From: an uncultured Flavobacteriales bacterium
GTDB lineage: Bacteria; Bacteroidota; Bacteroidia; Flavobacteriales_D; CAJJDF01
Assembly (NCBI GenBank): GCA_938009745.1
Contig: CALLII010000012.1
Span: 1-56,001 of the forward strand
Length of the DNA stretch: 56,001 bases
Reading direction: 5' to 3'
The position numbers were made by a program, and so were the translations under genes. Under the pieces are notes generated by a model, which saw nothing but the letters and a program-made list of their open reading frames with translations, was not told the origin of the DNA and made no database searches. Below are positions 13,734-43,066 of the stretch, piece after piece. Positions within the stretch are counted from its first letter, which is position 1, and each line of letters begins with the position of its first letter.

Positions 13734-16103
13734 ATGCTCAAGAGATTACTATTTTTTTCAATTTACTTTCTTATCTGTATGGCTATTCAAGCCCAAGGGG
13801 TGGGGCTTGGTAAGTGGAAAAACTATTTTCCTTTTCGTAATGTAATTCAAGTTATTAGTAATGGAGATAAGGTATACGGAGCAACACGAAACGGAATAAT
13901 CGTTAATGATTATGAAGACGGAACTACGGAGCAATTAACCGAAATAAATGCTCTTTCGGATAATAACATTTCTGCTATTGGCTTTAATACTGATAACAAT
14001 GCTCTTATAGTAGGTTATGAAAATGGTAATGCAGATATTGTTATCGATAATGAAACGACTAATCTTTTTCAAATTAAAGAGAGTAATGTAACTGGAGATA
14101 AAGGGATTAAAAGTATTTTCTGTAAAGATGATTTGGCATATCTTTCATGTGGATTTGGAATTGTAGTTTTTGATATTGCAAAAAAAGAAATTAAGGACAC
14201 CTATATTTTTGGACCTGGTGGTTCTCAAATAAAAGTAAATGCTGTTTATGTAGAAAGTGGTTTAATTTATGCAGGAACCGAAAATGGATTGTATACAGCT
14301 TCTGAAACTAGTGCTTTCCTTACTGATTTTAATTCTTGGTCAGTTCTTAGTTCAATCCCAAGTGGAAATAGAGAGATTGATAATATTTTAGAATTTGATA
14401 ATAAGCTACTGTTTAATACGCAAAACTCGATATCCTCAGATTCAGTTTATTGGTATGATGGATCTAATTGGGGAAGAATAACCTCTCTTTCTGATGAAAA
14501 GAACAATTCTATTGTCGCCTCTGAAAACGAATTGATTATTAGTCGTTTTGATTCCATTTATATATTGGATAATTCCTTTACTCAAATAAAATTATTTGAT
14601 GATTATGATGGGTTTTGGAAACCAAGATCTAATTATGTTATTAAGAACAATAACACTTATTATGTTGGAGATAGCGAAAATGGAATAATTTCTCTTACTT
14701 CCAATGGTAATGGAAGTTTTAACCAACCCAATTCAATTTTTTCGAATAACATTTTTGATATTGAAGCGGTTAATGGGAATCTATGGGGTTCATCTGGAAG
14801 CTTAGTAGGAGGAGGATGGAACAAAACATTTAATAATGATGGAAGTTTTCACTACAACATAACAGAAGATAACTGGACCATATATGGAATTGCATTTTTA
14901 AATACCCAGTTTTGTTTTCCAGAGAGTTGTAATCCAATTACCTCAACTCCAGTTAGTTGTGTAAATGATTTAGTTGGTATGGCAATAAACCCAGCTACTC
15001 CTGATAAAGGATATGCTTGTTCATTTTCTAATAAAGGAGTTTTAGAATTGCAGGATAACAAAATAGTAAAAGCTTATGATACATGTAACTCTAGTCTTCA
15101 AATTAGTTCAGTTCATAATGATCGAATTGCAATTGCGGATGCCGAGTTTGATGGAGAAGGGAATTTATGGGTAATAAATTCTTGGGCTGGTAATTCTTTA
15201 TCAGTTAAAACTGTAGATGATGTCTGGAAATCATTTGACTGTGGTGCAAGTAGTTCTAACATTATTGGATCAAAAATAATAGTAGGTGAAACAACAGGCT
15301 ACAAATGGATTATTTTTAAAGATCAGCATTTACTTGCCTATAATGACAATGGAACTATTGATGATGAATCGGATGATGAGTTTCAACTCATTAATGGAAT
15401 AGCCTCAAACGGTAGCTTAGATGAGACTCCAACTTCAGTTGCCGAAGATAAAGATGGCGAAATATGGATTGGTACCGAAAAAGGAATATTTGTAATTTTT
15501 ACACCAAACGAAATTTTTAATTCAGGTAATTTTACAGCTCAAAGAATAAAAGTAGAACTCGAGGGAAATATAGAGCTTTTGCTTGAAAATGAGTTTATTA
15601 CTTCGGTACAAATAGATGGGGGAAACAGAAAATGGATAGGTACACAATCATCAGGAGTATTTTTATTATCTGCAGATGGAACTGAACAAATCCAAAATTT
15701 CACTAAAGAAAACAGTCCTTTATTATCCAACAGTATCAATGATATTGCTATTGATGGAGAGAGCGGAGAGGTTTTTATTGCTACTGATCAAGGTTTAATT
15801 TCGTACAAAGGTGATGCGACAGAGGGAAAACAAACCTACCAAGATGTATATGCTTTTCCTAATCCAGTTACTCCAGGATATGATGGAAAAATTGGAATTA
15901 GAGGTTTAGTAGAAAACTCTGATGTAAGAATAACTGATGTTGCAGGTAACGTAGTTTTTGTGACTAAGTCACTTGGAGGTCAAGCAGTTTGGGATGGAAG
16001 AACACTAGAAGGAAACAAAGTTAGTTCAGGTGTTTACCTTGTGTTTATGACAAACGAAACTGGAACAACAGATGAAGTAACCAAAATTTTATTTATTAAA
16101 TAA
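13734..16103 (+). CDS. porZ: T9SS protein PorZ
   Basis: Surface component of the type IX secretion system, part of the complex that works with the sortase PorU to process and anchor cargo. The 789-residue protein has a signal peptide (MLKRLLFFSIYFLICMAIQAQ) and an opening GKWKNYFPFRNVIQV. Repeated two-component-regulator-type propeller blades follow (VYGATRNGIIV, IYAGTENGLYTA, IWIGTEKGIFVI, KWIGTQSSGVFLL). The C-terminal domain has the PorZ-type signature YAFPNPVTPGYDGKI, then ITDVAGNVV and GGQAVWDGR. That domain resembles a T9SS signal but in known PorZ is retained. It lies 38 bases after the amidohydrolase. Confidence 0.92.
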   Translation: MLKRLLFFSIYFLICMAIQAQGVGLGKWKNYFPFRNVIQVISNGDKVYGATRNGIIVNDYEDGTTEQLTEINALSDNNISAIGFNTDNNALIVGYENGNADIVIDNETTNLFQIKESNVTGDKGIKSIFCKDDLAYLSCGFGIVVFDIAKKEIKDTYIFGPGGSQIKVNAVYVESGLIYAGTENGLYTASETSAFLTDFNSWSVLSSIPSGNREIDNILEFDNKLLFNTQNSISSDSVYWYDGSNWGRITSLSDEKNNSIVASENELIISRFDSIYILDNSFTQIKLFDDYDGFWKPRSNYVIKNNNTYYVGDSENGIISLTSNGNGSFNQPNSIFSNNIFDIEAVNGNLWGSSGSLVGGGWNKTFNNDGSFHYNITEDNWTIYGIAFLNTQFCFPESCNPITSTPVSCVNDLVGMAINPATPDKGYACSFSNKGVLELQDNKIVKAYDTCNSSLQISSVHNDRIAIADAEFDGEGNLWVINSWAGNSLSVKTVDDVWKSFDCGASSSNIIGSKIIVGETTGYKWIIFKDQHLLAYNDNGTIDDESDDEFQLINGIASNGSLDETPTSVAEDKDGEIWIGTEKGIFVIFTPNEIFNSGNFTAQRIKVELEGNIELLLENEFITSVQIDGGNRKWIGTQSSGVFLLSADGTEQIQNFTKENSPLLSNSINDIAIDGESGEVFIATDQGLISYKGDATEGKQTYQDVYAFPNPVTPGYDGKIGIRGLVENSDVRITDVAGNVVFVTKSLGGQAVWDGRTLEGNKVSSGVYLVFMTNETGTTDEVTKILFIK

Positions 16104-16209: not shown

Positions 16210-18027
16210 ATGAAGAACATTTCTTTTTCACTTTCCACCTTGGCGCTTATCTTATCCATAGTTTTTGTGGTAGGATATAGAAGTGCTAATGTATCTGAAA
16301 ATGAGATGTCTTGGGATGTCTTAGGGTATTACCTTCCACTTCCTGCAACTTTTATCTATGAAGATGCTTTACTTGAAAATCCTACTTGGATTAAAGAAAT
16401 AAATGAGGAAAAACAGCTTACTGGAACCTTGTATCAAATCTCAACAAATGATGAAGGCGAACCTATTTATTTCTTCTTGCTAGGAATGGCTATTCTTTAT
16501 TTACCTTTCTTTTTAATTGGTCATGGAGCAACCTATATTACTGGCTATCCACCAGATGGATTCAGTTTGCCTTATCAATATGCAATGGTTTTTGGTGCAA
16601 TGATTTACACCATTGTTGGGCTCATTTATTTACGAAAAATACTAAACCATTATTTGCCTGATAAAATTACTGCAGCAGTGATTTTAATAGTAGTTTTTGC
16701 AACTAACTACTCCCATCACCTTACTCTTAAAAACCTAGAGACCGTTAACGTTCTTTTTATGTTTGTGTGTCTTATTATTTGGAATACCATTAGATGGCAT
16801 CAAGATTTTAAATTAAAAAATTTAATAGCCATAGGATCATTTATTACCCTAATGGCAATGGTTAAACCAAGCGAAATAATGATAGTATTCGTTCCGCTTT
16901 TATGGGGAGTATTTTCTAAGGAAACTTTTTATAACAAGCTTAATTTAATAAAGCAATATCGGAAGCAGTTTATGGTTGCAATACTTTGTTGTTTGCTATT
17001 AGCTCTGCCTCAAATGAGTTATTGGTTAATACGAACAGGCCATTTGTTTTATGATAGTTACAAAAACCCGGGAGTAGGGTTAGATGTATTCTCACCTTAT
17101 TTATTTCAATCTTTATTTAGTTATAAAAAAGGTTGGCTTATATACACACCAGTAATGATTCTGGGTGTAGTTGGATTGTTTTATTTATGGAAAAAAATGA
17201 AGAAAGAGAGACTAGCTCTTTTGGTTTATTTCCTAATAGCATTTTGCATAATTATTAGCTGGACCGAATGGTGGTACGGAGCAGGATTTTCTAATCGTCC
17301 GTTAATTACTGCATATCCAATATTAGCCTTGGCAATAGGGTTTTTACTGTTAAAAATCAGTGAAAGTAAGTTTTGGATTAAAACTTCAGTAGTCGCTTTT
17401 GTTTTTGTCGCTTTGTTTTTTAATCAGTTTCAATGGTGGCAATTACGAGCAGGAATCCTTGAGCCGTATAGAACTACCAAAGAGTATTATTGGGCAAGTT
17501 TTTTAGCAACTTCGGTAACTCCTGAAGACAAAGAAAAGCTATCTCTTTACAGAGATTTTGATGGAGACCAAGCCTTTACTGATATCGATAATTACAAGTT
17601 AATTAAAACGATACTGCTAGATTTTGAAGAATCAGAGGAGGAATATGTATTAACAGATTCAACTAATAATAAATTTGCTAGTCTTTCACCAGAAATTGAA
17701 TACTCCAAAACAATACAAGTTCCCTATCGCGATCTTACATCTAAAGATCATCTTTGGGTTAGAGTTTCAGTAGATTCTAAATTACAAACAAAGAACAGCA
17801 AAAAGCCAGTTGTTATAATTTCAATGGAAAGAAAAAATGGAGCTTATGGCTATACAGGAAAAGAAATTAATAGTATTGGCCTAACATGGTCTAATTTTCA
17901 ATTTGAATACCTCACACCACCAATCCGAAGTAGTAAAGACAAATTGAAAGTATTTGTTTGGAACATGGAAAAGTCTAATTTTGATATGGACAACCTGAAA
18001 ATAGAAATTTTTGAAAAGAAAGATTAA
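16210..18027 (+). CDS. GT-C type membrane glycosyltransferase-like protein
   Basis: Inner-membrane protein of 605 residues with roughly eleven hydrophobic segments in the first 410 and a soluble extracytoplasmic tail (about 420-605). An acidic residue in the first periplasmic loop (SWDVLGYYLPLPATF) resembles the catalytic Asp of polyprenyl-phosphate-sugar dependent GT-C enzymes such as ArnT/PMT (GT39-like). I cannot name donor or acceptor. It overlaps the next GT-C gene by 17 bases, so the pair is cotranscribed and probably acts on the same envelope glycan or lipid. The start at 16210 is an ATG in front of a good first transmembrane helix. Confidence 0.75.
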   Translation: MKNISFSLSTLALILSIVFVVGYRSANVSENEMSWDVLGYYLPLPATFIYEDALLENPTWIKEINEEKQLTGTLYQISTNDEGEPIYFFLLGMAILYLPFFLIGHGATYITGYPPDGFSLPYQYAMVFGAMIYTIVGLIYLRKILNHYLPDKITAAVILIVVFATNYSHHLTLKNLETVNVLFMFVCLIIWNTIRWHQDFKLKNLIAIGSFITLMAMVKPSEIMIVFVPLLWGVFSKETFYNKLNLIKQYRKQFMVAILCCLLLALPQMSYWLIRTGHLFYDSYKNPGVGLDVFSPYLFQSLFSYKKGWLIYTPVMILGVVGLFYLWKKMKKERLALLVYFLIAFCIIISWTEWWYGAGFSNRPLITAYPILALAIGFLLLKISESKFWIKTSVVAFVFVALFFNQFQWWQLRAGILEPYRTTKEYYWASFLATSVTPEDKEKLSLYRDFDGDQAFTDIDNYKLIKTILLDFEESEEEYVLTDSTNNKFASLSPEIEYSKTIQVPYRDLTSKDHLWVRVSVDSKLQTKNSKKPVVIISMERKNGAYGYTGKEINSIGLTWSNFQFEYLTPPIRSSKDKLKVFVWNMEKSNFDMDNLKIEIFEKKD

Positions 18028-20943: not shown

Positions 20944-21912
20944 ATGGCAAGAATTTTAACAGGAATACAAAGCACAGGAACACCTCATTTAGGTAATTTG
21001 TTAGGTGCAATTATTCCAGCAATAAAAATATCGGAAGACAAAAACAATGAGTCATTTTTATTCATTGCAAATTTGCACACTTTAACTCAAATTAAAGATG
21101 CAGAGGTTCTTAAAACAAATACGCTAAACACAGCAGCTGCATGGCTAGCATTTGGTTTAAATGTGAACAAATCAGTGTTTTATCGCCAAAGTGATATTCC
21201 TCAAGTAACAGAACTTACTTGGTATTTAAATTGTTTTTTTCCTTACCAAAGATTAAAATTAGCTCACTCTTTTAAAGATAAAGCCGATAGACTAGAAGAT
21301 GTAAATGCAGGACTTTTTGATTATCCAATGTTGATGGCTGCAGATATATTGTTGTACGATTCGGAGATTATTCCTGTCGGGAAAGACCAGATGCAGCATA
21401 TTGAGATTACGAGAGATGTAGCCAATAGATTCAACAACCAAATGGGCGAAACTTTTGTGATTCCTGAAGGAAAAGTGGAGAAAGAGACCCAATTGATTCC
21501 CGGTACAGATGGAACTAAGATGAGCAAATCAAAAGGAAATTTGATTAATATCTTTTTAGCTGACAAGAAGTTACGTAAGCAAATAATGGGAATAGAAACG
21601 GATAGTACACCACTAGAAGAACCAAAAAACCCAGATACGTGTAACTGTTTTACTTTGTATAAGTTACTTGCAAATGATGAGCAAACAGCTGAAATGAGAA
21701 AAAATTACTTAGCTGGTGGTTATGGATACGGACACGCCAAACAGGCTCTTTTTGAATTGATAATCGAATTGTTTAAAGAAGAAAGAGAGAAGTTTAATTA
21801 CTATATCGAGAACCCACATTTAGTTGAAGAACAGCTCATGATTGGAGCTAAAAAAGCTACTATAATTGCTAATGAGGTGCTTGCTAAAGTAAGATTAAAA
21901 TTAGGGTATTAA
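20944..21912 (+). CDS. trpS: Tryptophanyl-tRNA synthetase
   Basis: Class I synthetase charging tRNA-Trp; 322 residues, the usual bacterial length. The HIGH-like element is TGTPHLGNLLGA near the N-terminus and the KMSKS loop is GTDGTKMSKSKGN. AMIDQ-type motif equivalents are seen in MLMAADILLYDS and VGKDQMQHIE. The ATG at 20944 lies 42 bases after the HPt gene. It may be cotranscribed with the regulators, but no terminator or promoter is clear between them. It is followed by a palindromic repeat. Confidence 0.96.
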   Translation: MARILTGIQSTGTPHLGNLLGAIIPAIKISEDKNNESFLFIANLHTLTQIKDAEVLKTNTLNTAAAWLAFGLNVNKSVFYRQSDIPQVTELTWYLNCFFPYQRLKLAHSFKDKADRLEDVNAGLFDYPMLMAADILLYDSEIIPVGKDQMQHIEITRDVANRFNNQMGETFVIPEGKVEKETQLIPGTDGTKMSKSKGNLINIFLADKKLRKQIMGIETDSTPLEEPKNPDTCNCFTLYKLLANDEQTAEMRKNYLAGGYGYGHAKQALFELIIELFKEEREKFNYYIENPHLVEEQLMIGAKKATIIANEVLAKVRLKLGY

Positions 21913-21930
21913 GACTTTTTTTATTCGTCT

Positions 21931-22013
21931 GTCATTCCATACTTGATACGGAATCTAAAGTTGATCCAGACTGAGCTTTTAATTAATAGATTCTGAATCA
22001 AGTTTAGAATGAC
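21931..22013. repeat. Imperfect palindromic intergenic repeat
   Basis: Two 27-base arms, 21931-21957 (begins GTCATTCCATACTTGAT) and 21987-22013 (ends AAGTTTAGAATGAC), are inverted copies with 23 of 27 positions matching. The spacer is 29 bases. The arm ends and the GGAATCT / AGATTC core resemble the REP-like or MITE-like elements that are often scattered between genes in Bacteroidota. It sits just after trpS and could act as a transcript end or mRNA stabiliser. No second copy was noticed in this window. Confidence 0.75.
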
Positions 22014-22039
22014 TTATTTATTTTAATTCAAAACTAATT

Positions 22040-22324
22040 ATGAATTTTGAAGAAATAAAATCAAAATTTAAAACATTCACTTCGGAAATCAAAGAAGAAA
22101 ATTTTCTGATTTTCTATGATAAGTTTCATAAAGAAATTTCAGAGTATAAAAAATCTGGTGGTTTAGGTAAGCCACTACGTAATTTTCTCTATAATTTATG
22201 GAAAGAAAATGAGGGTGATATTTATAAAGATGAAGTTTTAGGAGAGATTCTAAATAGAATGGAAGGATATTGTTCGCCTCAATTTAAACTTGTTTTTAAA
22301 GATTTTAAAAAAGGAAAATACTAA
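22040..22324 (+). CDS. Small hypothetical protein (94 aa)
   Basis: Charged, helical protein of 94 residues, rich in Lys, Glu and Phe, with no signal peptide or membrane segment. I do not recognise a family. It has its own ATG at 22040, after a palindromic repeat, and runs four bases into the convergent rnhA stop. Base composition and the Phe/Lys/Glu-rich make-up look like real coding rather than a chance frame. Confidence 0.65.
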   Translation: MNFEEIKSKFKTFTSEIKEENFLIFYDKFHKEISEYKKSGGLGKPLRNFLYNLWKENEGDIYKDEVLGEILNRMEGYCSPQFKLVFKDFKKGKY

Positions 22325-22803
22325 AACAACCCTTTCTCCTCTTTCTGAGAATCTTCATACCCTTTATCCACATTGTGGCTTTTTGAGTCATTGGCAGCAG
22401 CAACTGCAAGTTGGTCGCAAACCTCATTGTATTTATTTCCTGCGTGTCCTTTTACCCAAATAAATTCTACTTGGTGTTTTGGGTAAATCTCTAAAAAACG
22501 TTTCCATAAATCGGCATTTTTTTTGCCTTTAAAATTCTTTTTTACCCAGCCAAAAACCCACTTTTTCTCTACAGAATCTACCACATATTTACTATCCGAA
22601 AATATACGGACTTTATACCCTGGTTTTTTCAGCATTTCTAGTGCTACAATCACACTTAATAGTTCCATTCGGTTGTTGGTAGTGTGGCGAAACCCTTCTT
22701 TTATTTCCTTGTAATGTTTCCCTGCCATCATTACTATTCCATAGCCTCCTGGCCCAGGATTACCTAATGCAGAACCATCCGTATATACATTTACTTGGCT
22801 CAT
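22321..22803 (-). CDS. rnhA: Ribonuclease HI
   Basis: Cleaves RNA in RNA-DNA hybrids; 160 residues. The catalytic acids are visible: Asp in VYTDGSALGNPGPGGYG, Glu in NNRMELLSVIVALE, Asp in IFSDSKYVV and the late Asp in NEVCDQLA after WVKGHAGNKYN. Its ATG overlaps the purN stop (ATGA), so it is translationally coupled to purN. It ends against a convergent small gene with a four-base overlap. The C-terminal 20 residues are a short charged extension. Confidence 0.95.
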   Translation of the reverse strand: MSQVNVYTDGSALGNPGPGGYGIVMMAGKHYKEIKEGFRHTTNNRMELLSVIVALEMLKKPGYKVRIFSDSKYVVDSVEKKWVFGWVKKNFKGKKNADLWKRFLEIYPKHQVEFIWVKGHAGNKYNEVCDQLAVAAANDSKSHNVDKGYEDSQKEEKGLF

Positions 22804-36957: not shown

Positions 36958-36986
36958 AAAGGGACGATTTTATCGTCCCTTTTTTT
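36958..36986 (+). terminator. Rho-independent terminator
   Basis: GGGACGAT (36961-36968) pairs with ATCGTCCC (36972-36979) around a three-base loop, extended by A-T pairs at the base and followed by Ts to 36986. It ends the DUF3127 gene. Confidence 0.92.
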
Positions 36987-37017
36987 GTAACTTGTTTCTT
37001 TAAATTAACTTAATTAA

Positions 37018-38595
37018 TTGCCTCATACTATTTCAGATATAATTGATTTTTCTCCCTTCAAAAAAAAGAATGGAGTAATCTACATTTCGGAAGTTGAGCA
37101 GGAATTTGAATCACTTTATATTGATACTCGAGATAAAGAATCTAGAGTTTTATCAGATGATGAAGTTAAGCTTTTACCAAAAACCAGTTCTGTTTATAAA
37201 TTACACAATGAATGGGAATTAAGAGAAAATACCACAACTCGATTTTCATCCTATTTAGTTAAAAAAGACGTAAAAAACATATTAGATTTAGGTTGTGGAA
37301 ATGGTTGGTTTACAGCTGCAATGGCAAAAGTAAAACCAAACTCTAATGTTATTGGAGTTGATTTAAATATAACAGAATTAGAGCAGGCAGCTCGCATCTT
37401 TAGTTCAGAAAGTATTAAGTTTTTGTATCACAATATTTTTGATGAATCAACAATGTTTAATAATAAATTCGACTTAATTACATTAAATGCTTCTGTTCAA
37501 TATTTTCCTGACTTTGATATTTTATTTGATAAATTAAAAGAGTTTTTAATACCAAATGGAGAAATTCATATTCTGGATTCTCCCTTTTATGGTTCTAATG
37601 AAATTATGAAAGCTGAGGAAAGAACTAAATTCTACTACAAAAGTTTAGGTAATGAAAAACTAAGTGACTATTATTTTCATCACAACATAAACTCTACTAA
37701 AAGCTTTGATGTTCTTTATAAACCTAAAAATGGAAAATGGGCGAAATTATTTAATAGCAATCAATCACCTTTTTTATGGTTAAAGTATATCAATAATGAG
37801 CAAGAAACTTCGGTTAAAAAAGGATTCTCTAAAATTGCTCAAGAATATGAGGACTTAGAAGAAAACTCTACTTTAATTCAGTATAAAAGAAAAAAAATAC
37901 GGGCGCATTTACTCACTAGGTTAGAGCCAAATAGTTCGGTTTTAGAGATAAACTGTGGTTCTGGATTAGATGCACTTTATCTCGCCAAAAAAGGACATAA
38001 AGTTTTGGCAACAGATATTGCAGAAGGGATGCTTAAGGAGGTTGAAACTAAAATAGCTATCAATAATTTACAAGAAAACCTAAGCTGTAAAAAACTATCG
38101 TTTGAGAATTTAAGAAGCTTTGAAGAAGAACAGTTTGGAGGATTGTTTTCTAATTTTGGAGGATTAAATTGTATTGATTTTCCTGCTTTGACTGATATTT
38201 TAAAAGATGCAAGTAAGATTATAAAACCGAACGGAGTAATCACTTTAGTTATAATGCCAAAAATTACTTTTTACGAATGGTTTAAGATTTTTAAAGGAAA
38301 AAAATCCGCTTTTAGGAGATTAAAAAAAGGAGGAGTGATTGCAAATGTTGAGGGAGAAAAAGTAAGAACTTTCTATCATTCAGCCCAAGCTGTAAGTAAA
38401 ATCTTAAAAAAAGATTTTAAAGAAATTAAAGTAGAAAATGTGTTTACAATTGGCCCCTCTGGTAGCTCATATAACTTTCCTGTAAACCACAAAAGATCAT
38501 TTATTTTCCTTACTAAATTTGATGCTTTTTGCAACAGAACAGGATTTCTGAAGGGTTTTGGTGATTATTATGTAATTAGTGCCAAAAAGAAATAA
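37018..38595 (+). CDS. Tandem class I SAM-dependent methyltransferase (two domains)
   Basis: Protein of 525 residues from a TTG at 37018; no ATG lies before the first domain. Domain one (about 85-190) has the SAM motif NILDLGCGNGWFTAAMA with the acidic VIGVDLN strand end. Domain two (about 270-400) has SVLEINCGSGLDALYLAKKG then VLATDIA, resembling UbiE/MenG-like enzymes. Two complete SAM folds in one chain are unusual. It is followed after 97 bases by a radical SAM gene, and shares direction with three further genes. Substrate unknown. Confidence 0.85.
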   Translation: MPHTISDIIDFSPFKKKNGVIYISEVEQEFESLYIDTRDKESRVLSDDEVKLLPKTSSVYKLHNEWELRENTTTRFSSYLVKKDVKNILDLGCGNGWFTAAMAKVKPNSNVIGVDLNITELEQAARIFSSESIKFLYHNIFDESTMFNNKFDLITLNASVQYFPDFDILFDKLKEFLIPNGEIHILDSPFYGSNEIMKAEERTKFYYKSLGNEKLSDYYFHHNINSTKSFDVLYKPKNGKWAKLFNSNQSPFLWLKYINNEQETSVKKGFSKIAQEYEDLEENSTLIQYKRKKIRAHLLTRLEPNSSVLEINCGSGLDALYLAKKGHKVLATDIAEGMLKEVETKIAINNLQENLSCKKLSFENLRSFEEEQFGGLFSNFGGLNCIDFPALTDILKDASKIIKPNGVITLVIMPKITFYEWFKIFKGKKSAFRRLKKGGVIANVEGEKVRTFYHSAQAVSKILKKDFKEIKVENVFTIGPSGSSYNFPVNHKRSFIFLTKFDAFCNRTGFLKGFGDYYVISAKKK

Positions 38596-38692
38596 TAACT
38601 CAATTCAATATTGTTTATCTTGTAAGCACAAATTACACTATCCCATCGGTTAGTATAAAAAACTGATAATTAGATTTTACTAAACTTATTAA

Positions 38693-39778
38693 ATGAGTAC
38701 AGCAGACGTTTTAAAAAATTTAAATAAAAAAGTGCTTCCACAGAAGTACTTATTCCCACCTGCTTATATAGTTTTAGGTGTAAATAATGTATGCAACTTA
38801 CATTGTAAAATGTGTGATGTTGGGACAAAAAATCTTGATAGTAATTTTGCTCAGAACTTAGTTGGAACCCACCCAATAAACATGCCTTTAGAGCTAATTT
38901 CTAATGTGATAAATCAAACTGCCGAGTATTTTCCTAAGACTAAGTTGGCTTATGCTTTTACAGAACCAATTGTATATCCTCATTTAATTGAATCTTTACA
39001 ATTAGCCAGAGATAAAAACTTATATACATCAGTCACTACTAATGCATTAAGTTTAAAACAAAAAGCCATTCAATTATCAGAAGTTAAATTAGATGAATTA
39101 TTTATTTCATTGGATGGTCCACAAGATATTCATAATGAAATAAGAGGGCACAAGAAATCTTTTCAGAAAGCAATTGAAGGAATAGAATTGATTTCTGCAC
39201 AAAAACATGTTCCAAAAATATCAGTAATTTGTGCAATTACTGAATGGAATATTGGGCATTTAAAAGAATTGTTAACCGCATTGAAACCTTATCCAATCCA
39301 TGAAATTGGGTTTATGCATACTCAGTTTAATACTAAAGAATCAGCTCAAATTCACAATGAATCAAAATGGGGCATAGACTATCCAACCTATGATTCAAAT
39401 GTTGATTTGATAGATTTTTCTAAAATGGACTTGGAATTATTATACAAAGAGATAAAAGAAATTAAAAGTGATTTATACCCATTCAACATATTTTTTTCGC
39501 CTGAACTCCAGTCTATGGCAGCATTGAAAAATTATTATTTCAATACAACAAAATTCATAGGGAAATCATGCAATGCAGTATTTACAAATTTGATGATAAA
39601 ATCGGATGGAAGTGTAATACCTGCTCATGGAAGATGTTATAATCTTTCAGTAGGAAATATTTATGAATCTTCATTAAAACAGATTTGGCAATCGGAAGTG
39701 TTATCAAAATTAAGAAAAGATCTTAGTTCAGCAGGAGGATTATTCCCTGGTTGTAGTAGATGTTGTAGTGCAGTTTAA
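38693..39778 (+). CDS. Radical SAM/SPASM domain protein
   Basis: Protein of 361 residues. The radical SAM cluster motif is C34-x3-C38-x2-C41 in VCNLHCKMCD. A C-terminal SPASM-like region has Cys at about 294 and 318 and the end GCSRCCSAV, likely to hold extra iron-sulfur clusters. SPASM enzymes often modify peptides, but others act on small molecules. No precursor peptide gene is evident beside it. It is nine bases before the B12-type radical SAM gene, so the two are cotranscribed. Confidence 0.9.
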   Translation: MSTADVLKNLNKKVLPQKYLFPPAYIVLGVNNVCNLHCKMCDVGTKNLDSNFAQNLVGTHPINMPLELISNVINQTAEYFPKTKLAYAFTEPIVYPHLIESLQLARDKNLYTSVTTNALSLKQKAIQLSEVKLDELFISLDGPQDIHNEIRGHKKSFQKAIEGIELISAQKHVPKISVICAITEWNIGHLKELLTALKPYPIHEIGFMHTQFNTKESAQIHNESKWGIDYPTYDSNVDLIDFSKMDLELLYKEIKEIKSDLYPFNIFFSPELQSMAALKNYYFNTTKFIGKSCNAVFTNLMIKSDGSVIPAHGRCYNLSVGNIYESSLKQIWQSEVLSKLRKDLSSAGGLFPGCSRCCSAV

Positions 39779-39787
39779 ATAATTAAA

Positions 39788-41308
39788 GTGAAAAATAAAA
39801 TAATAATATTCAATCCGAGAAGTGCTAATGCAAAGCATAGAATTCCTAACTCTATACTTCAAGTTGGAGCATCTATTCATGGTAAATTTGAGTACGTATT
39901 TGTAGACGGAAACTTAGAGAAAGATCCTTATAAAACAATTGAAAACTATTTTAAAACAGGAGAATTCAAATACTTCTGTTCTACAGTAATGCCAGGTCCT
40001 CAGTTACAGCAGGCAATACCTTTCACTAAAAAAATAAAAGAACAATTTCCAGATTCAATTACAGTTTGGGGAGGATATTTTGCAGCAAACCAATATAAGG
40101 TTTCTATCAATTCTGGATATGTAGATTATATCGTGAGTGGTCCCGGAGATGTTGCTTTTCCATCCTTGATAGGGGCTTTAGAAGAAAACAAGTTGGATGA
40201 GATACCTAAAATCAAAAATCTTATTTACTTAGAAGAGAACAATACTATAACAAAAACCGTTAAAGAGGCTTTATTGAACCAAGACAAATTACCCGATTTA
40301 CCTTACGAATACCTCAATGAATTTTATCCTCTTGAAGGATATTTATCTAAGACTTTCATGGGTAAGAAAACATTTGCATATCACTCTAGTATGGGATGTC
40401 CTTTCTCCTGTTCGTTTTGTGCGGTAGTGCCAATTTACAATGCAAGATGGCAAGGAAAATCAGCAGAGTCTATTTATAAAGACGTTAAGTTTTTTAAAGA
40501 TTCATATGGAATTGATGCAATAGAATTTCACGACAACAACTTTTTTACTTCTCGAAAAAGGGTAATGGCTTTTTGTGAATTAGTAAAGGATGATGGAATT
40601 CAGTGGTGGGGAGAAGGAAGAATAGATACATTAAATAAATATTCAGATGAAGAACTGAAATTAATGCGTGAAGCAGGTTGCGTAATGATATTTTTGGGTG
40701 CTGAAACAGGAAATGATGAAGTGCTAAAGCAAATGAATAAAGGAGGCACTCAAACTGGAGCTATGATTGAGGAGTTTGTACTAAGAATGAAAAAAGCAGA
40801 CATTATTCCAGAATTATCTTTCGTTTTGGGATTACCTTTAGAAACTGAAAAACAAGTATTTGACCAAATAAACTGGGATATTAATTTTATTAAAAAGATT
40901 AAAAAAATAAACTCACAAGCAGAGATTATTATTTATTTATACAGTCCTGTTCCAACTGAAGGCTCGGAACTTTATAAAACCATAACTGAAGCAGGGTTTA
41001 ACTTTCCAGAGAAATTAGAAGATTGGATTTCGCCAGTTTGGGAAAATTTTGACTTAAGAAAAAATCCTCTTACACCATGGTTAACTCCTAAAATGATAAG
41101 TCGAATTAAAGATTTTGAAACGGTATTACAAGGAGTTTTCCCTACAGTATCGGATTTTAGAGTAACTAAACTTAAAAGAGCAATAGTAAGAACTACTGCT
41201 GTTGCAAGATATAAATTAGGATGGTATTCTTACCCCTATGAAATAAAAGCATGGCTTAAGATATGGAAATACCGTCAGCCAGAAATTGAAGGATTTTATT
41301 CTGAATAA
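39788..41308 (+). CDS. B12-binding-type radical SAM protein
   Basis: Protein of 506 residues. Residues 1-140 have the Rossmann-like cobalamin-binding arrangement (IIFNPRSANAKHRIPNSILQ, TVWGGYFAANQ, DYIVSGPGD). The canonical DxHxxG motif is absent, as in many of this class. The radical SAM triad is C204-x3-C208-x2-C211 in SMGCPFSCSFC. Such BchE/HpnH-like enzymes often catalyse methyl transfer or ring chemistry at unreactive carbons. The first codon is GTG (39788). Its TAA directly abuts the next ATG. Confidence 0.9.
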   Translation: MKNKIIIFNPRSANAKHRIPNSILQVGASIHGKFEYVFVDGNLEKDPYKTIENYFKTGEFKYFCSTVMPGPQLQQAIPFTKKIKEQFPDSITVWGGYFAANQYKVSINSGYVDYIVSGPGDVAFPSLIGALEENKLDEIPKIKNLIYLEENNTITKTVKEALLNQDKLPDLPYEYLNEFYPLEGYLSKTFMGKKTFAYHSSMGCPFSCSFCAVVPIYNARWQGKSAESIYKDVKFFKDSYGIDAIEFHDNNFFTSRKRVMAFCELVKDDGIQWWGEGRIDTLNKYSDEELKLMREAGCVMIFLGAETGNDEVLKQMNKGGTQTGAMIEEFVLRMKKADIIPELSFVLGLPLETEKQVFDQINWDINFIKKIKKINSQAEIIIYLYSPVPTEGSELYKTITEAGFNFPEKLEDWISPVWENFDLRKNPLTPWLTPKMISRIKDFETVLQGVFPTVSDFRVTKLKRAIVRTTAVARYKLGWYSYPYEIKAWLKIWKYRQPEIEGFYSE

Positions 41309-41971
41309 ATGAGAAATTTAATTAAAAAAATAGCTCATCCTTTTCTAAAGTTTCTTTCGTTTAAGTTCCATAGCAAACCAAGAAAATATTCATACAAAGA
41401 AATATCTGTTTTGGTCCATCCCGAAGTTTTTCCACCTCACTTTACAATCAGCACAAAGATTTTATTGGATTACATTAATGAGCTGGATTTAACTAACAAA
41501 TCAGTTTTGGAATTAGGTTGTGGTTCAGGTATTATTTCTTTGTTTGCAGCTTCTAAGGGAGGAGTTGTAACGGCAAGTGATATAAACCCTATAGCAATAG
41601 ATTTTTTAAATAAAGCTGCCAGTAAAAATGAGCTAAAAGTTAATGCTTTAGTCTCCGATTTATTTCAAAATATTTCACAAAAAGAATTCGATTATATTAT
41701 AATTAATCCACCTTATTACCCCAAGAATCCTTCAGAAATGAAAGAGATGGCTTGGTTTTGCGGAGAGGATTTTATTTATTTCGAAAATCTGTTTATTCAA
41801 TTAGCATCCTTTGTTCCCAATTCTACCATTTTAATGATATTATCAGAAGATTGTGAAATTGAAACAATTAAGGCAATTGCAAGTAAAAATAAACTTGAAT
41901 TTCTGAAAGTGCATGAGACAAAAGTTTCGTTTGAACGGAATTTCATATTTTCAATTACAAAAACAGACTAA
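41309..41971 (+). CDS. HemK-like SAM methyltransferase
   Basis: Protein of 220 residues. The SAM motif is SVLELGCGSGIISLFAASKG and the N-methylation motif is NPPYY (in YIIINPPYYPKNP). That motif occurs in enzymes acting on glutamine, adenine or guanine nitrogen and in related small-molecule methyltransferases. It starts at the base after the upstream stop, so it belongs to the radical SAM operon. Its target is not known. Confidence 0.88.
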   Translation: MRNLIKKIAHPFLKFLSFKFHSKPRKYSYKEISVLVHPEVFPPHFTISTKILLDYINELDLTNKSVLELGCGSGIISLFAASKGGVVTASDINPIAIDFLNKAASKNELKVNALVSDLFQNISQKEFDYIIINPPYYPKNPSEMKEMAWFCGEDFIYFENLFIQLASFVPNSTILMILSEDCEIETIKAIASKNKLEFLKVHETKVSFERNFIFSITKTD

Positions 41972-41976
41972 AATAC

Positions 41977-41984
41977 TATCTTTG
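41977..41984 (+). promoter_or_regulatory. Putative -7 promoter box of the VOC gene
   Basis: TATCTTTG, an exact TAnnTTTG match followed by CAACC, lies 24 bases before the ATG at 42008. No TTG at -33 is found (the region reads TTTTCAATTAC). Confidence 0.4.
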
Positions 41985-42007
41985 CAACCTAATTCAAAAC
42001 CAACAAA

Positions 42008-43066
42008 ATGGAGAAGATAATTAGTGGAATCCAGCAAATGGGAATTGGAGTTCCTGATGTAGAGAAAATATTTGCTTGGTACCGAGAAATGTTTGGGATA
42101 GATATCAAAGTGTTTGAAGAAGCTGCGGAAGCTCCTTTGATGATTGATTATACAGGCAACAAAGTACAAAGTCGTACTGCAACTCTTGCATTGAACATGG
42201 AGAGTGGAGGTGGTTTTGAGATATGGCAATACACTTCTCGTAATACCGAAAAAGCTGAATTTGATATTCAATTGGGCGATTTAGGTATCTACAGCTGCAA
42301 GATTAAGTCAAGAGATGTAAAAGCAACTTTTAATTTTTTAACTAAAAAGGGAGTAGATATTTTAGGAGATATTACTAAGAATCCTGTTGGAGAAGAAAAC
42401 TTTTTTGTAAAAGATCCTAATGGAAACATATTTAACATAGTAGAAGGAAAAGGATTTTTTGTAGATACCAAGCATCCAGCAAAAACTGGTGGAGTTGCAG
42501 GAGCAATCCTGGGAGTATCTGATATGGAAAAATCATTGAAGCTATACCAAGATGTTCTGGGTTACGAAACCATTGATTTTGATGAAACAGCAGAATTTTC
42601 CTGTTTCAAAGGATTGCCATCTGGAGGAAAAACTTTCCGTAGAGTTCAATTGTCACACAAGAAAGACAAAGTAGGAGCATTTGCAAAATTATTAGGCCCA
42701 ACTACAATTGAATTAGTTCAAGAAATAGGAGGGAACCCAAGAAAAATATTTGAAAACAGATTTTGGGGAGATTGGGGATTCATTCACTTATGTTTTGATG
42801 TACAAAGAATGGATATGCTTAAAAAAGACTGTGAATCTGCAGGATTTCCTTTTACAGTAGATAGTGACAACTCATTCGATATGGGAGAAGCAGCAGGAAG
42901 GTTTTCTTACATAGAAGACCCAGATGGAGCGCTTATTGAGTTTGTAGAAACTCACAAAGTTCCACTAATGAAAAAAATAGGTTGGTACATTAATCTCAAA
43001 AAGAGAGATCCAGAAAAGAGCCTGCCAACTTGGATGCTTAAAGCCATGAAAATGAGCCGAGTTTAA
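42008..43066 (+). CDS. Tandem VOC (glyoxalase/dioxygenase-like) protein
   Basis: Protein of 352 residues built of two vicinal-oxygen-chelate modules: about 5-150 (MGIGVPDVEKIFAWYREMFG) and about 158-315 (GAILGVSDMEKSLKLYQDVL). Possible metal ligands in module two are the His in GFIHLCFDV and the Glu in ALIEFVETH. The first module has a Glu in GGFEIWQY but no early His. The length is near 4-hydroxyphenylpyruvate dioxygenase, but the diagnostic HPPD features were not found, so I leave the reaction open. It follows the radical SAM cluster but has its own likely promoter. Confidence 0.82.
   Translation: MEKIISGIQQMGIGVPDVEKIFAWYREMFGIDIKVFEEAAEAPLMIDYTGNKVQSRTATLALNMESGGGFEIWQYTSRNTEKAEFDIQLGDLGIYSCKIKSRDVKATFNFLTKKGVDILGDITKNPVGEENFFVKDPNGNIFNIVEGKGFFVDTKHPAKTGGVAGAILGVSDMEKSLKLYQDVLGYETIDFDETAEFSCFKGLPSGGKTFRRVQLSHKKDKVGAFAKLLGPTTIELVQEIGGNPRKIFENRFWGDWGFIHLCFDVQRMDMLKKDCESAGFPFTVDSDNSFDMGEAAGRFSYIEDPDGALIEFVETHKVPLMKKIGWYINLKKRDPEKSLPTWMLKAMKMSRV

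Follow-up and report, generated by a model that had tools for sequence, protein, structure and literature searches.

Radical SAM enzymes and methyltransferases of a Flavobacteriales bacterium as a likely split part of a surface-polysaccharide tailoring system

Introduction

The stretch of DNA analysed here (the window; 56,001 nucleotides of contig CALLII010000012.1, assembly GCA_938009745.1) comes from an uncultured Flavobacteriales bacterium and contains a module of four genes encoding a double class I methyltransferase, a radical S-adenosylmethionine (SAM) enzyme with a SPASM domain, a cobalamin-type radical SAM enzyme, which we call C, and a HemK-like methyltransferase. What does such a set of enzymes act on? 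The genes had previously been described, in a sequence-only reading, as a tailoring set for an unusual small molecule, lipid or peptide. We find that the module is the detached end of a widespread Bacteroidota glycan cluster and not a free-standing pathway. The four genes likely help to tailor a surface polysaccharide of Wzx/Wzy type, whether an exopolysaccharide, a capsule or an O-antigen, with the machinery divided between two places in the genome.

Results

The module is the end of a larger cluster

Open reading frames (ORFs) and Pfam domains bear out four same-strand genes of these kinds (Table 1). The intergenic gaps are, in order, 97, 9 and 0 bases, in line with the nine and zero bases given before for the last three genes. 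Four of five catalytic modules had been counted as SAM-using; the correct count is all five. Two of these are the class I methyltransferase domains of the first ORF (Pfam), with residues 1-253 of one type (MT29) and residues 254-525 of another (MT3). Both types occur as separate genes at other loci.

Table 1. Features of the module and its edges (window coordinates).
Feature	Position	Strand	Remarks	Basis
Terminator-like hairpin after DUF3127 gene	36958-36982	no strand	AAAGGGACGAT/ATCGTCCCTTT stem; left edge of the slot	sequence scan
Double class I methyltransferase, fused	37018-38595	+	525 amino acids; TTG start	ORF call and Pfam
Radical SAM/SPASM enzyme	38693-39778	+	361 amino acids	ORF call and Pfam
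Cobalamin-type radical SAM enzyme C	39788-41308	+	506 amino acids; GTG start	ORF call and Pfam
HemK/N6AMT1-like methyltransferase	41309-41971	+	220 amino acids; NPPYYP motif	ORF call and Pfam
TATCTTTG promoter-like box of VOC gene	41977-41984	+	outside the module; conserved in all four congeneric slots	

With C as the query, 411 loci were fetched from GTDB genomes and 80 were kept, nearly all from Flavobacteriaceae, with some from Cytophagales and Saprospiraceae. ORF calling and clustering place C at the far end of a larger cluster in these relatives; counts of flanking genes refer to the 69 loci with a full upstream flank. The typical order starts with a nucleotidyltransferase-like protein (NTase; 300 amino acids), a cobalamin-type radical SAM enzyme (A; 487), MT3 (260), a second cobalamin-type radical SAM enzyme (B; 460) and MT29 (250). 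Membrane glycosyltransferases, a GT2 or GT4 glycosyltransferase and a Wzx-like or ABC-type exporter follow, and the cluster ends with an optional FkbM methyltransferase or SPASM enzyme, C and HemK. C is immediately followed by the HemK gene in 79 of the 80 loci. In 63/69 loci C has glycosyltransferase or flippase genes within ~10 kb, a flippase or ABC exporter is present in 42/69, at least one of A, B, MT3 and MT29 in 54/69, and a SPASM homologue in 25/69. The set therefore recurs in synteny across Bacteroidota, and its genes are not scattered and unlinked in all relatives. The comparison delimits two units, the C-HemK pair and the NTase-A-MT3-B-MT29 core.

The NTase is Polbeta/NTP_transf_2-like (locus L105, 15246-16142, and relatives), with a GSLSKG...DxD motif and a strongly conserved C-terminal KS...SKHHPxxFQ; no third catalytic acid is obvious in it by eye. 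The middle of the cluster takes two forms, one with MT29 and GT39/GT4-type genes, the other with a lipoprotein-like protein and GT2 and GT87. This protein (~375 amino acids; L014, 5432-6562) has a heme-type CxxCH motif, lies between B and GT2/GT87, has homologues in 39/69 loci and gave no Pfam or NCBIfam match. We rejected it as a universal partner, as it is absent from the window's own genome and from five of six relatives tested.

The assembly genes are elsewhere in the same genome

In the window's genome, A is the last gene (21190-22650) of an eight-gene operon on another contig, C70. The operon reads Wzz-like, Wzx (Polysacc_synt), Wzy_C, GT4, DUF1972 rhamnosyltransferase-like, Wzy_C-Bac_transf fusion, NTase (Polbeta) and A, with junctions of -11, -4, -4, -4, -4, +1 and +48 bases, in order. 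The initiating sugar-phosphate transferase (Bac_transf) is thus fused to Wzy_C; the first gene gave no Pfam match and is called Wzz-like from its position and length. B was not found in this genome, and A alone represents the pair.

The module itself contains no flippase, polymerase, initiating transferase or glycosyltransferase. All of these are encoded with A on C70, which indicates that the module works with a Wzx/Wzy locus and is not itself one. The earlier remark that no transporter is evident thus holds for the window, but not for the genome, where the partner operon has a Wzx flippase and Wzy polymerases.

The double methyltransferase provides a further connection. In congener G003, MT3 and MT29 directly follow A in the equivalent operon, so the double methyltransferase is a fusion of two polysaccharide-operon genes, and the best MT3 match in the window's genome is the C-terminal half of that protein. 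An identical fusion architecture, with 60% sequence identity and TTG at the same position, is found in congener G001; the fusion was encountered in these two genomes only.

C and A occur together

Among 399 genomes of the order, C is present in 22, A in 24 and both in 21 (hypergeometric p ~1e-30, with relatedness ignored). C and A are distant homologues (~30% identity), which a threshold of 1e-120 separates. Their distribution over genera is identical, with both in the same 10 of 70 (p ~2.5e-12). In 16 of the 21 genomes a single contig carries both genes, 2-21 kb apart; in the window's genome and four others, all of them draft assemblies, they lie on different contigs. MT29 was found in 14 of the 399 genomes, each of which has A or C. 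A sample drawn from across the phylum has C in 14 of 296 genomes, counting that of the window.

The module occupies a variable slot

Comparison with congeneric loci (L107, L123 and L124) defines a variable slot from the DUF3127 gene to a VOC-gltX gene pair (window 36958-42008). The slot is empty in congener G002, in which A and MT29 are also absent at the thresholds used. It holds a GT2-type glycosyltransferase on the opposite strand in G003, a fused methyltransferase and a GT4 in G001, and the fused methyltransferase, the SPASM enzyme, C and the HemK-like enzyme in the window. These varied contents suggest a site where glycan genes are inserted. The slot genes were probably gained or exchanged horizontally, as is expected of genes that vary surface glycans.

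The hairpin at the left edge is common to the window and G001, and other stems are found in G002 and G003. On the right, the module ends at the stop codon of the HemK-like gene, 5 bases upstream of the TATCTTTG box, which resembles a Bacteroidota -7 type promoter element. The tandem VOC protein had been left as a possible member of the set. We place it outside the module, as it has its own conserved promoter-like box and is 92-95% identical in three congeners whatever the slot contains, which marks it as backbone.

In a maximum-likelihood tree, the C of the window falls into a set of 39 rows that is otherwise from Flavobacteriales, nearly all Flavobacteriaceae (support 99/89), with one exception from an evidently mislabelled bin. 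It is placed away from the C of G004, a genome of the same family, and from other members of its own order. The end branch is long, which leaves the donor unsure. The GC content of the module (29-33%, versus 31-36% in neighbouring genes) is not decisive, and we rejected base composition as proof of transfer; with the caveat of the long branch, the tree is the better evidence.

C has the predicted fold of a class 1 cobalamin radical SAM enzyme

C matches Radical_SAM (3.8e-15), and its match to the Pfam B12-binding domain (19.6 bits) is below the cut-off of 32.1 bits. Its cluster motif, C204-X3-C208-X2-C211, is present in every homologue checked. The structure model has a mean predicted local distance difference test (pLDDT) score of 80.6, with residues 200-219 at the cluster-binding loop modelled poorly. 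It shows an N-terminal five-strand sheet (strands 4-9, 36-40, 60-67, 91-96 and 114-116) and a hairpin (145-156), followed by the radical SAM barrel. This layout matches the description of class 1 cobalamin radical SAM enzymes (PMC13331322), and C shares it, with the CX3CX2C motif, with OxsB, TsrM and TokK. From this predicted fold we infer that C may bind cobalamin.

The best match of C in the PDB, both by sequence (4.3e-13) and by fold (Foldseek 2e-15), is AprD4 (6fd2), the radical SAM diol-dehydratase of apramycin synthesis, followed by TsrM, MgmA, OxsB, TokK and CysS. AprD4 was solved with a sugar substrate, in keeping with a role for C on glycans. However, C is only 14% identical to AprD4 in the fold alignment, is found in a polysaccharide cluster, and scores 61.5 bits on the AprD4 model NF033070, for which the curated cut-off is 500. 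To our knowledge, AprD4 itself is not cobalamin-dependent.

In OxsB, TsrM and TokK the loop after strand 3 sits under the cobalt (PMC13331322). In 97 of 98 sequences of C (a set that counts a few loci more than once through repeat fetches) this loop reads VMPGPQ, where Asn, Arg or Trp sites are reported for those enzymes. A second motif, GPGD, is found in 96 of the 98, where A and B usually have GEGE. The conservation of VMPGPQ and GPGD marks C as a distinct subfamily.

The window's genome encodes the B12-dependent MetH and therefore uses cobalamin. Congeners G001 and G003 have A and gave no match to PF02965, the activation domain of B12-dependent methionine synthase, which puts the cobalamin need of A in these two genomes in question.

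The other enzymes of the module

The SPASM enzyme (Radical_SAM, 7.5e-16; SPASM, 1e-9; Pfam) has a CX3CX2C motif (C34, C38, C41) and further cysteines C293, C315, C354, C357 and C358, all invariant.

The HemK-like enzyme keeps its NPP(Y/F) motif in 24/24 aligned homologues, and its model (pLDDT 89.9) has a class I fold with an extra N-terminal helix. Its top profile hits are MJ0882, N6AMT1/HEMK2 and RsmC, and its model matches N6AMT1, RsmC and PrmC, and also gentamicin N-methyltransferase (5tyq) and the carbamoyl N-methyltransferase Asc-Orf2 (9l4q). It shares fold and NPP(Y/F) motif with these enzymes, but differs in the extra helix, in its nearly constant pairing with C and in scoring below the NCBIfam cut-off of every named family (PrmC/HemK models TIGR03534, 64.3 bits against 199.1; TIGR00536, 53.7 against 115.5; TIGR00537, 70.0 against 87). 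A carbamoyltransferase-like gene lies near C in 18/69 loci, so a carbamoyl nitrogen could be among the targets of the HemK-like enzyme, although we offer this as a guess.

All four proteins of the module are below the curated NCBIfam cut-off of every family among the matches listed, so no named pathway fits. On TIGR04295 (B12_rSAM_oligo, cut-off 400), C scores 30.7, A 82.1 and B 76.4 bits. We accordingly rejected a named family for C, the SPASM enzyme, the HemK-like enzyme, A and B, and agree with the earlier view that no described pathway can be recognised.

Discussion

Gene content, synteny, co-occurrence and the variable slot are direct observations, whereas a role of the enzymes in tailoring the polysaccharide, or a lipid-linked precursor of it, is our inference. 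The enzymes would act on repeat-unit sugars, or on a lipid-linked or nucleotide-linked precursor, before flipping by Wzx. C and the SPASM enzyme could start radicals at unactivated carbons, for C-methylation, deoxygenation or epimerisation. The NPPY enzyme might methylate a nitrogen of an amide, a carbamoyl group or an amino sugar, and the two class I domains of the fused protein may add further methyl groups.

Several points weigh against this assignment. The window genes and the Wzx/Wzy operon lie on separate contigs (C12 and C70) of a draft genome, and 15 of the 69 loci have none of A, B, MT3 and MT29 within the fetched flank. C must be dispensable in some versions of the cluster, as congeners G001 and G003 have A but lack C. 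At 12-25% identity the fold matches are distant ones, and the substrates, the reactions and cobalamin binding by C are putative.

The cluster could also make or modify a lipid part, such as an unusual carrier lipid or glycolipid anchor, which the radical SAM enzymes and methyltransferases would alter before it is glycosylated and flipped. A, B and C recur while glycosyltransferases and exporters vary between loci, from which it could be argued that the constant part is not the sugar chain. The N-terminal helix of the HemK-like protein and the recurrent membrane transferases of GT39/GT87 type would fit such a role. A and B score on the lipid-type models HpnJ, HpnR and TIGR04072, and on BchE, but all these scores are far below cut-off. 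Moreover, the clusters as read here share no recurrent fatty acid, isoprenoid or ligase gene, and the partner operon in the same genome resembles standard Wzx/Wzy polymer assembly. We therefore regard a lipid product as unlikely.

Less probable still is a protein or RNA as the target of C and the HemK-like enzyme, with a glycan-gene neighbourhood that merely reflects shared variable slots. Protein and rRNA methyltransferases are among the top hits of the HemK-like protein, and MgmA, among the fold matches of C, is a protein glutamine methylase. However, NPPY-type folds act on sugars and carbamoyl groups too, the patchy presence (22/399 genomes of the order) is unlike that of core translation targets, and C co-occurs almost perfectly with A, itself part of a polysaccharide operon. 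The gene of the CxxCH lipoprotein-like protein, present in 39/69 loci, could be counted in favour, but the window's genome lacks it.

A free-standing pathway to a secondary metabolite or a ribosomally synthesized and post-translationally modified peptide (RiPP) is very improbable, since, although RiPP and antibiotic clusters often encode SPASM and cobalamin radical SAM enzymes, the weak matches to ApyD, WgkB and TIGR03975 are, like those to all RiPP maturase models, far below cut-off, the recurring partners are glycosyltransferases and flippases, and gaps of 97, 9 and 0 bases leave no room for a conserved precursor gene inside the module (no search for short ORFs in relatives was made). Of the earlier view of a tailoring set, the recurrence in synteny and the distance from all named families hold up; the small-molecule or peptide cluster does not.

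Tailoring of a surface polysaccharide remains the reading that we prefer. As in known Wzx/Wzy clusters, the partner operon has Wzz-like, Wzx and Wzy proteins, an initiating sugar-phosphate transferase and glycosyltransferases, and relatives of the window genes are found among glycosyltransferases and flippases, with patchy presence and in a variable slot. The difference lies in the added enzymes, as many as three cobalamin-type radical SAM enzymes together with one SPASM enzyme and three class I methyltransferases. Such a number of radical SAM enzymes is unusual for a surface-polysaccharide cluster. Sugar-acting radical SAM enzymes are known mainly from antibiotic pathways. The open-access full-text literature, with most subscription journals outside its scope, yielded no paper on such a cluster, which is weak evidence of absence.

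We can only tentatively suggest, as a possibility somewhat short of an even chance, that these genes represent an undescribed and widespread class of Bacteroidota surface polysaccharide (or carrier lipid), built through the joint action of as many as four radical SAM enzymes, of which three are cobalamin-type. Its building blocks might then be C-methyl, deoxy or rearranged-carbon units unreported in bacterial glycans, and C would represent a new radical SAM subfamily in which VMPGPQ and GPGD create a distinct cobalamin environment. If sugar-acting radical SAM enzymes indeed serve surface-polysaccharide assembly in many Bacteroidota (411 related loci), glycans whose chemistry escapes standard sugar analysis would be expected, and cobalamin supply would be linked to the composition of the cell surface.

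Some minor observations concern the records themselves. Loci L021, L087 and L090 come from records titled Bifidobacterium, Saccharospirillaceae and Verrucomicrobia and have Bacteroidota-type clusters; they are probably mislabelled or mis-binned metagenome assemblies. The C of L087 is identical to that of G004, from the window's family. One C homologue (G431:C1:3010017-3011513) is interrupted by a TAA stop, as a decaying copy or through a sequencing error. Elsewhere in the window, positions 13734-16103 encode a PorZ-type protein of the type IX secretion system (PF21544), followed at 16210-18027 by a PMT_2-type membrane protein.

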